Source of the DNA: a virus
Virus record (IMG/VR): IMGVR_UViG_3300017991_000048
Span: 62,001 to 126,000 of that record
DNA length: 64,000 nt
Strand: one strand, 5' to 3'
In this document: positions 31,733 through 62,916 of the stretch, piece after piece
Layout of the letters: the number at the start of each line of letters is the position of its first letter
Numbering within the stretch: the first letter of the stretch is position 1
Program-made: the position numbers and the translations under genes
The notes under the pieces: model-generated
The model's database searches: none
The model's input: the letters and a program-made list of their open reading frames with translations, nothing else
Told to the model about the DNA's origin: nothing

Positions 31733-32650
31733 TCAGGCAACCCCTGGTATCTCAATCCCTCGACCAGCCAAGCCCTTGACGAATTCTTTCACCGCTTTGC
31801 GAAACTTGGCTGGCTCATGGTCCTCAAGTAGTGTAAAAAACTCGCTTCTTGTGAGCCAATGGTCAAAATGCGTTCGCCGGGGCTTTTGGCCATATTCTCT
31901 TGCAAACTCATCAATCTCATCGGCTAGGTATGTATAGAATTCAGACTCCTTAAGCCTGTCAGGTTTGTCTGTATCGTCTTTGTCTGGCGAAAGATACCTG
32001 GAAGGAGTCCCTGGCTCTTCTTCCAGGTCCATGAGTGCTTTGAATACAGTTTGCCCAACGTGTTGAAGCTCATGGCGTAATATTCGTAAAAGATCACCCA
32101 AAGACGTGCGAAAAAGCTCTACTGAGTCAAACTCAGCAACTTCAAACCCATCCTGGTACATCTCCGTCAAATCCTCTACATCTACTGTTAGCCTATCAAA
32201 AACGGGTTGCCACGTGCCTTTTGTGTCAACACGGGGTCTGAAGTTCAGTACGACTTCTATTTCGTCCCACATCTCTTCTTTTTGGAGTTGAGCTATGTTT
32301 TTGCCAGGGTGCTTTCGTTTCAACTCTCTGAGATACTTCCAGCCTCTAAGATCGATGGGAAATGTCTTTTTTGCCTTGGCCTTGTACCTTCTACTGGACG
32401 ACGTGTATTTCTTACATTCCCGTTGCAACAGTGTTATGTCTACAATATGCCCCTTAGCCGGTGGCTCATCTTTATCATACTTGTCTCTGTACCTTATGGT
32501 TTCAGCCGCGTCTTCGGCAATGTTCAGTACATGAGCAGCGTAAAGTTGTCGGACCCACGCACCAATAGTTTTCATCATTGCCGGGGGAGCTTCAAAGATA
32601 CCGGCTTGTTTTGTGTACCGGTTAACAACTCTATGAGTTAGGTCTGTCAC
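31733..32650 (-). CDS. RY-motif protein with HELQH motif, paralog 1
   Basis: It begins MTDLTHRVVNRYTKQAGIFEAPPAM, nearly the same as the next gene. LRHELQHVGQ in the middle is a zincin-like H-E-x-x-H. A third ligand is not obvious. The N-terminal motif is shared with genes at 50623, 53386, 53841 and 62518. A metallopeptidase-like virion or processing protein is possible but unproven. Confidence 0.65.
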   Translation of the reverse strand: MTDLTHRVVNRYTKQAGIFEAPPAMMKTIGAWVRQLYAAHVLNIAEDAAETIRYRDKYDKDEPPAKGHIVDITLLQRECKKYTSSSRRYKAKAKKTFPIDLRGWKYLRELKRKHPGKNIAQLQKEEMWDEIEVVLNFRPRVDTKGTWQPVFDRLTVDVEDLTEMYQDGFEVAEFDSVELFRTSLGDLLRILRHELQHVGQTVFKALMDLEEEPGTPSRYLSPDKDDTDKPDRLKESEFYTYLADEIDEFAREYGQKPRRTHFDHWLTRSEFFTLLEDHEPAKFRKAVKEFVKGLAGRGIEIPGVA

Positions 32651-33981
32651 CTTGTTTTACCCGGTATCTCGATTCTTCGTTTAGACAGAGCTTTGGTGAA
32701 TTCCTTGACGGCTTTTCTCCACTTGGCTGGCTCATGCTGTTTGAGCATTTGGAAGAACTCGCGGCCAGTAACCCAATTGTCAAAGAACTCTCTCCGATCC
32801 TTTTTCCGTGGATCTTTGTACTTCTTCAACGGGTGTTTAGGGAGCATCCGGGTGAAATAATCAACTTCGTCTAATAGTCTTGTGTAGAATTCTGACTCTC
32901 GAAGAGCGTGAGGCTTCCTGCCCTTTGATGGTTTTATGTCTCTCGTAAGTTCTTTAGATGGTGTCCCGGCTTCATCTTCGAGGCCCATAATACTTGTAAA
33001 TATATCCTGCCCAACGTGCTGTAGCTCATGCCGTAATGTCTCTAAAACTTCATCCAAGGCCCACCGGAAAGATTTTACGGCAGTTCCTTTTTCCAGATAC
33101 CTGCGACCTACGAAGCTCAGGCTTTGAACATCAACACGAATTGTCCTACTTCTTGGCCTCCACATGCCTTCTGACGTTTTATGAGGTTTGAAATTCAGTA
33201 CGACTTTTATCTTATCCCATCTTTTGTCTTTAAGAGTACTTTCAAAAACAGATGTGGAGTAGTGTCGTTTCAACTCTTTGAGGTACTTCCACCCTGTGAA
33301 GTCGATAGGGAAGAATTCATAAGCTTGGGTCGCGTACTCTTTTGCGGTTGATGTGTACTTGTGGCACTCTTTTTGAAGAAGTAGCAGTTCCACCATGCCG
33401 CTTTGACTTAGACCCTCCTGATCCTTCTTAAAGGAAAGATCGAGGTCATCTTCGTACTCCATTTGATGCTCTATGTGACGGCGAACGTAATCGGCAACCT
33501 CTTCCGCAGTCCCTGTTTGTCCAGGCACCGAATAATTAACAAGGAAATCGAGTTTTTTATAGCCCTCTCCTACTTCATACATGGGGAGGTAGTGTGGGAG
33601 AGGGTTGTCTGTCATTTGCCGAACTCTAGGCTCGGATGGATCTCGGTAAGTTCTGGGGATTCGACGAATTCCAATATATGAAGGTGCCCCAAAAATGCTA
33701 CTTGGCCGTTCCCACATTCTATATTTGACCGTCTTACCCTCACGGAGCTTCTTAATATCACGTTCCAAGGAAGCCAGGGCAGCTTCCATTTCCTTCTTTC
33801 TTCTTTCTACGACTACCTCACGCTCCCTTTCCATTTCTAATCTTGGCTCAAGGTCAGCCAAAACCTGACCAGCATAGACCTCTGTAACCCACTCGCTTAT
33901 GGTTTTCAACATGGCGGGAGGGGCTTCGAAAACACCGGCTTGCTTCATGTGCCGGTACACAACTCTGTGGGCGAGATCCAT
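32647..33981 (-). CDS. RY-motif protein with HELQH motif, paralog 2
   Basis: MDLAHRVVYRHMKQAGVFEAPPAML, then an insertion of about 140 residues with a charged helix, followed by the same C-terminal part as its neighbour: FFPIDFTGWKYLKELKR, LRHELQHVGQDIF, LRESEFYTRLLDE, TGREFFQMLKQHEPAKWRKAVKEF. A tandem duplication followed by divergence. HELQH suggests a metal site. Confidence 0.65.
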   Translation of the reverse strand: MDLAHRVVYRHMKQAGVFEAPPAMLKTISEWVTEVYAGQVLADLEPRLEMEREREVVVERRKKEMEAALASLERDIKKLREGKTVKYRMWERPSSIFGAPSYIGIRRIPRTYRDPSEPRVRQMTDNPLPHYLPMYEVGEGYKKLDFLVNYSVPGQTGTAEEVADYVRRHIEHQMEYEDDLDLSFKKDQEGLSQSGMVELLLLQKECHKYTSTAKEYATQAYEFFPIDFTGWKYLKELKRHYSTSVFESTLKDKRWDKIKVVLNFKPHKTSEGMWRPRSRTIRVDVQSLSFVGRRYLEKGTAVKSFRWALDEVLETLRHELQHVGQDIFTSIMGLEDEAGTPSKELTRDIKPSKGRKPHALRESEFYTRLLDEVDYFTRMLPKHPLKKYKDPRKKDRREFFDNWVTGREFFQMLKQHEPAKWRKAVKEFTKALSKRRIEIPGKTR

Positions 33982-34080
33982 GTCAGTAATGTACCAGAAT
34001 AATCAGATTATTCTTATTCTCTGGACTCTGGTTGATATAATCCCAGACGTCTATCCCATAACTCTCCACTGAACAAAATG

Positions 34081-34332
34081 TCAGTCAGTCCCGTTGTCGA
34101 TTTCCCCGCTGGTAAAAAGTCTGACCGCTTCCAGGTGGAACGCACGATCAAAGACCTCAACATCGGTATTATTCCCATGTCCGTTGGCCCAGAAATAATC
34201 TCGGTAATCAATATGGGTTGGGTGAAGCGGCATAAGAAACTTGCCGTTCACGTCGCGGGTGTACTGGTACTTTTTCCAGGCAGCTTGGGCGGCTTCCTGG
34301 CCTTTTGTGGTTGGATCTTTCATAATGGCCAC
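34081..34332 (-). CDS. Small protein of unknown function
   Basis: 83 residues, with aromatic/His-rich core (LMPLHPTHIDYRDYFWANGH). No tag or Cys cluster. The 99 bases between its stop and the start of the next gene downstream hold only short frames. Confidence 0.6.
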   Translation of the reverse strand: MAIMKDPTTKGQEAAQAAWKKYQYTRDVNGKFLMPLHPTHIDYRDYFWANGHGNNTDVEVFDRAFHLEAVRLFTSGEIDNGTD

Positions 34333-61570: not shown

Positions 61571-61576
61571 AGTAGT

Positions 61577-62485
61577 ATGGAAATCCAATCTCTCAGCCTG
61601 TGCGTCCCGGCGAAATGCCCCAATAAATGCCCTTTCTGTGTCTCACGACAGCACCATGAAGAGTACAAGGAGGTTGCGTCAGATGACGCTTACTGGGCTG
61701 CGGTCCGGTCCCGACTGCAATTCGCCAGGGACAATCATTGTAATACCATTGTCTTGACCGGAAGCGGTGAACCGATGGCTAACCTGCCTTATCTTATTCG
61801 GTTTGGGTCTATCAACTCAACTCTTTCTTCACCGTTTCAGTGGATTGAAATCCAAACGTCAGGAGTTTATCTGGGTCCGAATATACTTTCCCTGCGAACA
61901 TGGGATATAGGAGTGGCTACGATCAGTCTGAGTCTTGCCAATATGTTCGATAGCGATGCTAACGCTGAGTTGATGGGGATACTCAAAAAGCTACGGTTCA
62001 ACACTGTCAAGCTTTGTGAATCTATCAAGGAACTGGGTTTCAACCTTCGCCTCTCATTGAATATGTCGGACATCTATAACGAGGTAGCCCCGGAAAAGTT
62101 TTTTGAGACCGCCAAAGAGCTTGACGCTGATCAGATAACATTCAGAGAGCTTTATGCTGCGGAGTCTGACTCAAAGCAAGCCGAGTGGGTAAAGGAACAT
62201 TCTTATGCCCGGAACGCTTGCAAATACATGACAGTGAAAGAGCATGTTGAACGTTATGGTCGGAGGTTAGAACGGCTTTCTTTCGGCTCTGATCGGTATT
62301 CACTGGACGGGCTATCGGTTGTTATTGACGATAACTGTATGGATAGGGAAAGGGCTAAACTTTTCTGGCCGGTACATCCTTTTCACGACTTTCCTTTCCC
62401 CACCAAGACCTTACGTTATCTCATTCTCCGGGAAGACGGCAAACTCTACACAAAATGGGACGACAAAGGTTCCTTACTGTTTTAG
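61577..62485 (+). CDS. Radical SAM protein
   Basis: CPNKCPFC (C14-x3-C18-x2-C21) binds the 4Fe-4S cluster. LTGSGEPM is the SAM-contact (GGE-like) segment. 302 residues cover the core TIM-barrel half. In phages such proteins can modify nucleotides or make activators, as NrdG does, but no partner is in the window. The ATG follows the promoter by 4-5 bases. Confidence 0.83.
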   Translation: MEIQSLSLCVPAKCPNKCPFCVSRQHHEEYKEVASDDAYWAAVRSRLQFARDNHCNTIVLTGSGEPMANLPYLIRFGSINSTLSSPFQWIEIQTSGVYLGPNILSLRTWDIGVATISLSLANMFDSDANAELMGILKKLRFNTVKLCESIKELGFNLRLSLNMSDIYNEVAPEKFFETAKELDADQITFRELYAAESDSKQAEWVKEHSYARNACKYMTVKEHVERYGRRLERLSFGSDRYSLDGLSVVIDDNCMDRERAKLFWPVHPFHDFPFPTKTLRYLILREDGKLYTKWDDKGSLLF

Positions 62486-62517
62486 GATAGTTAATTCTGT
62501 TGTATGTGCCGTAAGGT

Positions 62518-62916
62518 ATGAGCTTACCTGAACGTATAGCCGAACGGTATCAAGCCGCCGCAGCCTCGAAATACGCCGTTATCCGTAAGGAAAAAGGCAA
62601 ATACTGTGTCCGATCGCCCAACAACCCTGACTGGAATGGCGGATGTTTTGACTCAGAAGAAGAGGCCAAAAAACGGCTGCAACAGGTAGAGTTCTTCAAG
62701 TCCAAAAAGGCATACTACTTAGAAGAAGACGATCCAGGCGATCCAAACGCTGATAAAGTCGAAATGGCACACGTCGTCGCACAAGCAGCCACCTCTTCCC
62801 TAAAGAAACAAGTAGGGTACTTACGCGGTTTTCACATATCCCCTTCCGAACTTAGACGGTTTCAGAAAGTCATAGGGTCCGCTGTAGCCAAAGAGATTTG
62901 GCGAATATGGCCTTAA
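62518..62916 (+). CDS. RY-motif protein
   Basis: MSLPERIAERYQAAAASKYA is the shared motif. It is followed by VIRKEKGKYCVRSPNNPDWNG, GCFDSEEEAKKRLQQVEFFK, a known small repeat unit (R-S-x-x-N-P-x-W-x-G-G-x-F-x-S-x-x-E-A-x-x-R-L-x-x-V-E-x-F-K) often linked to phage head-associated proteins. Acidic middle, helical end. Virion association is an inference. Confidence 0.7.
   Translation: MSLPERIAERYQAAAASKYAVIRKEKGKYCVRSPNNPDWNGGCFDSEEEAKKRLQQVEFFKSKKAYYLEEDDPGDPNADKVEMAHVVAQAATSSLKKQVGYLRGFHISPSELRRFQKVIGSAVAKEIWRIWP

Follow-up and report, generated by a model that had tools for sequence, protein, structure and literature searches.

Why should unrelated proteins of one phage begin with the same short sequence, and where would that sequence send them? 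The question is raised by a 64,000-nucleotide stretch of viral DNA (the window), i.e., bases 62001-126000 of the 398-kb IMG/VR record IMGVR_UViG_3300017991_000048 (genome G000), in which several proteins start with an RVAxRYLxA-type motif (tag 1; strict form R[VI][VA]xR[YFH] near the N-terminus). A second motif, Y[ST]YD[RH]RxxA at the N-terminus and preceded by M-x (tag 2), accompanies it. Both tags are short, N-terminal, common to unrelated protein bodies, conserved as protein and not as DNA, swapped for one another and kept at fusion joints. They are very probably detachable, exchangeable address labels. For the capsid as their destination we estimate a probability of about 0.7, and the same for the reading that the exchangeable pair would load effectors into the capsid for co-injection, by analogy with the capsid-targeting sequences of phages T4 and P1.

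The rest of the record and its relatives were read in 20-kb stretches, so that a gene split by a stretch boundary may have been missed, and genes were called with a simple codon/Shine-Dalgarno script. Relatives were picked up through the terminase, namely G001 (416 kb), G002 (412 kb), G003 (323 kb), G004 (255 kb), G006 (133 kb), G008 (393 kb) and G010 (363 kb); of LR745208, 200 kb were read as well. The clade consists of very large bacterial viruses (jumbo phages), and the tags are specific to it. No relatives were found for the window DNA and the HELQH protein (see below) among cultured phages, nor for the full HELQH and HAD proteins as single queries against viral contigs. A host search with the terminase against GTDB genomes gave no match. 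The tags and their carriers within the window are as follows.

31733-32650, minus strand: tagged HELQH protein of 305 amino acids (aa); HExxH motif only, no Pfam or PHROG match
32615-32632, minus strand: its tag 1 core RVVNRY (residues 7-12)
32647-33981, minus strand: tagged 444-aa HELQH paralogue (AlphaFold2 model; no PDB fold match)
33949-33966, minus strand: its tag 1 core RVVYRH (residues 6-11)
45719-46339, minus strand: 206-aa protein with tag 2
46310-46339, minus strand: its N-terminal tag 2, MYSYDHRKVA
47348-47365, minus strand: weak internal tag-1-like RVVDRF (residues 219-224 of 47213-48019; score 11.9)
50623-51507, minus strand: tagged 294-aa coiled-coil protein; real start is the ATG at 51507
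51469-51486, minus strand: its tag 1 core RVALRY (residues 8-13)
52027-53373, plus strand: 448-aa two-module protein, joined at an internal tag
52045-52062, plus strand: its degenerate N-terminal tag KVASRA
52690-52707, plus strand: its internal tag 1 SVVQRY(LSAS) (residues 222-227), at the module junction
53386-53841, plus strand: tagged 151-aa protein; in G001 fused behind a tag
53398-53415, plus strand: its tag 1 core RVAARF (residues 5-10)
53841-55127, plus strand: tagged 428-aa protein with HAD-like N-terminal domain (weak HAD match)
53850-53867, plus strand: its tag 1 core RIVQRY (residues 4-9)
62518-62916, plus strand: tagged 132-aa protein
62533-62550, plus strand: its tag 1 core RIAERY (residues 6-11)

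The initial annotation listed seven proteins as starting with the tag 1 motif. This holds for 6/7, which carry R[VI][VA]xR[YFH] at most 10 residues from the start. The seventh (52027-53373, N-terminus MTIIPQKVASRAS) has the degenerate KVASRA, which lacks the aromatic residue and stays under the score threshold; its internal SVVQRYLSAS (residues 222-231) is a good copy (profile score 14.2). The trailing [AS] of the motif is exact in 4/6 and shifted by one residue in both HELQH proteins. The HELQH residues themselves, of the HExxH kind expected in a zincin metallopeptidase, are invariant among the HELQH proteins. As the annotation had also stated, the bodies differ: their recognisable domains (topoisomerase IB, HAD, ART, Tad3, SAM lyase, zeta kinase) are unrelated. 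The motif search it had proposed for the rest of the 398-kb genome yielded about 18 further carriers; tag 2 at 45719-46339 had also escaped it.

The C-terminal tag said to be absent from the listed proteins is taken here to be LW[DE]HL, the only recurring one seen in the window, and 0/7 end in it. LW[DE]HL is found on many small genes at 1-30000 and 40536-42494. With a loose pattern it occurs in 44 genes of the window's genome and 47 of G001, while the remaining relatives checked have only 0-8 such genes, and it is almost never combined with the N-terminal tags.

In about ten related jumbo-phage records, the strict tag 1 is found in the first ~18 residues in 59 distinct cases, compared to ~4.7 expected from an internal rate (P ~4e-43) whose underlying count itself contains genuine internal tags. 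For shuffled N-termini of the window's genome, 0.18 cases are expected vs. 16 counted, one gene entering twice via overlapping loci. Tag 2 is N-terminal in 25 distinct cases (~0.6 expected), its carriers being diverse proteins, e.g., 45719-46339, L013:3916, L015:22-651, L019:1881 and L019:2320. Tag 1 is encoded by 54 distinct nucleotide strings in which all Arg (six), Val and Ala codons are in use; it is thus not a recent DNA repeat. By profile score, tag 1 carriers number 22-24 in the window's genome, ~19 in G001, ~17 in G010, 11-15 each in G002 and G003 and only 2 in G008. Overall, most of the larger genomes checked hold 10-29 tag carriers.

The tag 1 consensus (46 distinct tags) reads L-[ATS]-x-R-V-[AV]-A-R-[YF]-L-x-A and loses information content outside positions -3 to +8; the motif begins mostly 3-8 residues past the Met. 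For the 21 tagged proteins of G010, the alignment is confined to MxxxxxxRVAxR. The helical moment is 0.55 for tags vs. 0.29 for other N-termini and 0.37 for shuffled tags, where the tag mean is reached in 18% of shuffles. The AlphaFold2 model of the HELQH protein 32647-33981 (no PDB fold match at E<=0.001) places residues 4-11 in a helix at a confidence score (pLDDT) <50; the body, from which this helix is separate, becomes confident at about residue 20. We infer that tag 1 forms an amphipathic helix.

Since the profile behind the carrier counts was trained on the same genomes, the independent test is a set of blind DNA scans, i.e., the pattern alone against 2.9 million IMG/VR viral contigs, twice for tag 1 and once for tag 2. 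For tag 1, M-x4-RVAxR[YF]LxA gave 5 matches and the version with one residue more gave 10, compared to 1 match for a control pattern with V and L exchanged. 3/15 are not at an open-frame start, while 10/15 lie in records with the clade terminase (four in the first scan, six in the second); the six records also hold the clade capsid protein (82-86% identity). For tag 2, M-Y-[ST]-Y-D-R-R-x-x-A, scanned without a shuffled control of its own, gave 5 matches, all of them in-frame gene starts on contigs of 159-435 kb; 4/5 contigs carry the clade terminase and the fifth carries both tags. In total, 14 of the 20 matches are in records with the clade terminase (49-73% identity), and three further matches coincide with in-frame gene starts in records that lack it. 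The motif is specific enough to pull the clade out of a global virus collection.

The strongest evidence that both tags are labels with one purpose is their exchange on homologous bodies. With the tags stripped, homologous bodies that start at the same point differ between phages in whether they bear tag 1 or tag 2, which we find in at least 5 families. Respective pairs are L038:11782-12426 vs. L015:22-651 (56%), L114:21656-22450 vs. L079:11071-11868 (41%, E 2e-55), L164:2534-4357 vs. L062:1-1301 (50%, E 3e-102) and the topoisomerase/LPD1 proteins L007:2355-5222 vs. L150:16501-18678 (46% over 727 aa). The tags are also exchanged between HELQH paralogues inside the window's genome, where the alignment switches exactly at an invariant AGxxEAPPAM. 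The orthologue of 50623-51507 in G001 (65% identity) retains its tag.

Judged by gene comparison, internal tags sit where modules join. In G002, the topoisomerase stands alone and starts MAFRVVARYKEKKQV; in G000, the topoisomerase domain lies inside a 955-aa protein with AQIVQRYLTAKYKEKKQV directly ahead of the domain. In G001, GVVERYLTGKYKQKKEV links a KOW domain to the topoisomerase; the KOW domain of G000 is encoded separately, as a 91-aa protein that has a tag of its own. The annotation had suspected a fusion in 52027-53373, and this is borne out: its N-terminal half (2-231) matches G001 L050:7809-8915, where the body of 53386-53841 comes after the tag, such that the partner joined at the tag differs between the two genomes. 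In a test for homologues at the junction, 4/7 internal-tag sites are positive vs. 39/445 random sites; the sites are few, and two of the four positives match the same doubtful gene call.

Tags are also found in other arrangements. L172:4698 shows tandem tags (RVAHRYAAQERIAYRF) ahead of an ART-like LYHGT domain, and the 899-aa protein between portal and protease (L015:11503-14202), whose size and internal content vary in relatives (up to 1347 aa), contains an internal SRVASRYLS before its C-terminal domain.

What do the tags carry? By domain, the tagged bodies include topoisomerase IB (three phages), LPD1, a zeta-type kinase, DUF5662, Tad3 (anti-Thoeris), a DRAT-like ADP-ribosyltransferase, ART-PolyVal, an S-adenosylmethionine (SAM) lyase, a polyA/CCA-type polymerase with HD, a UvrD-type helicase and HExxH proteins. 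L007:2355-5222 combines LPD1, topoisomerase IB and HELSH; most other carriers are single-domain. The anti-defence-type cargo is that predicted by Pfam, i.e., a putative Tad3 and a putative SAM lyase. In G010, the families matched by 70 untagged genes concern replication, nucleotide metabolism, sigma factors and lysis-type functions, while 21 tagged genes have matches to SAM lyase, zeta toxin, M78 peptidase and DUFs. Many tagged proteins are likely weapons against bacterial defences. The cargo is of the kinds that phages are known or predicted to inject (T4 internal proteins, P1 Dar proteins, phiKZ Tad1 and polyvalent proteins).

Carriers cluster (9 adjacent pairs vs. 1.4 expected). The capsid gene has four of them nearby (298.9-301.7 kb), and next to the terminase a tagged 133-aa gene is kept in seven genomes and further loci, nearly all of the related ones checked. 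The head cluster also includes L015:8711-10216, which matches a PHROG head maturation protease (phrog_18299) and has no Pfam match. Given unrelated bodies, injected-effector-type cargo, tag swaps and carriers adjoining head genes, a sorting signal like a capsid-targeting start is the best reading. This part of the earlier comparison with T4 stands; the cleavage that came with it is not supported (see below).

Several observations weigh against capsid loading. Recognised head proteins (major capsid protein, portal, protease, terminase) have no N-terminal tag, whereas a UvrD-type helicase and a polyA/CCA-type polymerase do, as might be the case for a destination inside the cell. Untagged versions of homologous domains exist (HAD in G001; DUF5662 relatives), and most cargo is without known function. 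No tag set was found in Tunturi_5, Bacillus phage G (41 kb around the head genes), PaBG, Lu11 and Motura, and the topoisomerases of the latter three have an N-terminus without tag. Finally, the clade is known here from sequence records.

Compatible with capsid loading is the idea that the tag is a cleaved T4-type propeptide, i.e., that a prohead protease cuts it off after assembly and frees the fusion modules at internal tags. N-terminal position and build fit, the head cluster provides the protease gene, and internal tags sit between modules. Yet the expected LxE with a cut before A, G or S is not enriched: it follows the tag in 13/96 tagged proteins vs. 9% of untagged ones, although the specificity of this clade's own protease may differ. 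Furthermore, the conserved block has no Glu at P1, and past position +8, where information drops, there is no P1/P1' signature. We therefore consider cleavage unlikely.

The tags might instead address an intracellular destination, such as a replication or infection compartment, the membrane or a phage-encoded hub complex. The evidence for an address function is silent on where, and the tagged helicase and polymerase would suit such a place. However, replication and nucleotide-metabolism genes, which would need such import, are untagged, the cargo leans towards anti-defence and polyvalent enzymes of the kind that is typically injected, and carriers adjoin capsid and terminase genes. This makes such a destination rather improbable.

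Very improbable is a shared start without function in the protein, spread by recombination or as a promoter-proximal gene-capture cassette. It would account for tags at module junctions and for the clustering of carriers, but not for a fixed amino-acid core behind such varied synonymous coding, for tags kept between orthologues with bodies only ~35-65% identical, or for an unrelated second tag taking its place. That the tag is a common N-terminal element of one fold with distantly homologous bodies is hardly credible: some carriers are paralogous (HELQH), but the unrelated domains named above already contradict it, and the HELQH model puts the low-confidence tag outside the folded body.

Under capsid loading, the tag 1 helix would dock on the prohead core or a head-module protein during head assembly, with conserved head-cluster products (a 397-aa Q-rich protein, the 899-aa protein, the portal) as candidate receptors. 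The tagged protein would be enclosed, DNA would be packaged around it, and on ejection the two would enter the next host together, letting anti-defence and takeover enzymes act there ahead of any phage gene expression. The tag may remain on the protein, since no T4-like cleavage signal is seen. As a tentative extension, to which we give slightly less than even odds, the two tags may form a two-letter sorting code, i.e., interchangeable tags and joints that load into each phage head a rotating set of 10-29 enzymes for anti-defence and takeover, uncleaved and via a receptor unrelated to the T4 core.

The annotation had taken such signals to be established for T4 only, which is too narrow. T4 internal proteins are packaged and injected, several are anti-restriction proteins (blocking type IV restriction), and they are unrelated except for a common short N-terminal leader (PMC12373910), through which many T4-type internal-protein genes were recognised. 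For P1 DarB, a 250 kDa cargo, residues 1-30 suffice to bring a reporter into the P1 capsid (PMC9024508). phiKZ Tad1 is injected, and in SPN3US and phiKZ, jumbo-phage ejection proteins have N-terminal propeptides thought to target the prohead. Polyvalent proteins are multidomain proteins with LPD1, ART-PolyVal, HExxH and further domains that are predicted to be injected (Iyer et al. 2017; PMC5512222).

Our tags share with the capsid-targeting sequence of T4 internal proteins and Alt the extreme N-terminal position and the occurrence on unrelated proteins. They differ in that LxE-A is not enriched, a second tag can replace the first, fusions contain tags internally, most of the larger genomes checked have 10-29 carriers and the enzymatic cargo is bigger, with packaging here a prediction. 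Because the cleavage feature was tested for and not found, we do not class them as T4-type cleaved sequences. As for P1 DarB, the cargo includes predicted anti-defence proteins (Tad3, SAM lyase by Pfam), but Dar proteins have no consensus N-terminus, while here two tags are common to many proteins. Most SPN3US/phiKZ propeptides are 111-254 residues long and cut off by the prohead protease, in contrast to ~12 residues without cleavage signature here. Like polyvalent proteins, L007:2355-5222 joins disparate domains including LPD1; however, the passages of PMC5512222 consulted name no N-terminal address tag, whereas single-domain pieces and fusions bear the same tags here. What is new is that a second tag can take the place of the first, together with the scale, the joints and the clade-retrieving motif.

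How huge phages pick particle-borne proteins is largely open, and few anti-defence proteins have been described for jumbo phages (PMC13282480). A sequence-readable tag provides a searchable list of injected-effector candidates in an uncultured clade, where whatever follows a tag becomes a candidate for anti-defence or host takeover. The tag might also be used as a portable means of loading engineered heads, and it presents a case of evolution by tag-and-body shuffling.

Some minor observations concern insertions and short modules. The UvrD-type helicase L012:2039-6346 has an intein-like insertion (Pfam Intein_splicing), and the relatives' protease and portal genes have large insertions that are probably inteins (L066:1-3910; L066:7903-10980; L095:15329-18628). 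A ~30-residue element, KPADPTxNMSPEDAKKWREEHxKNKDKFK, recurs in L014:14865-16484, L007:12488-13303, L052:13736-15373 and L059:6579-7118. We considered it as a C-terminal partner of the tag and rejected this, as it is a separate module found between tags and at C-termini. EFxSxEALKxYLxEHPxADxxxHxV and xPPEFLEQQKKMKEK are similar short modules adjoining tags. Finally, L015:664-1176 and L006:16022-16408 are two different proteins with a repeated ~45-residue N-terminal module (PSRExLASxLxxLAxRVA).

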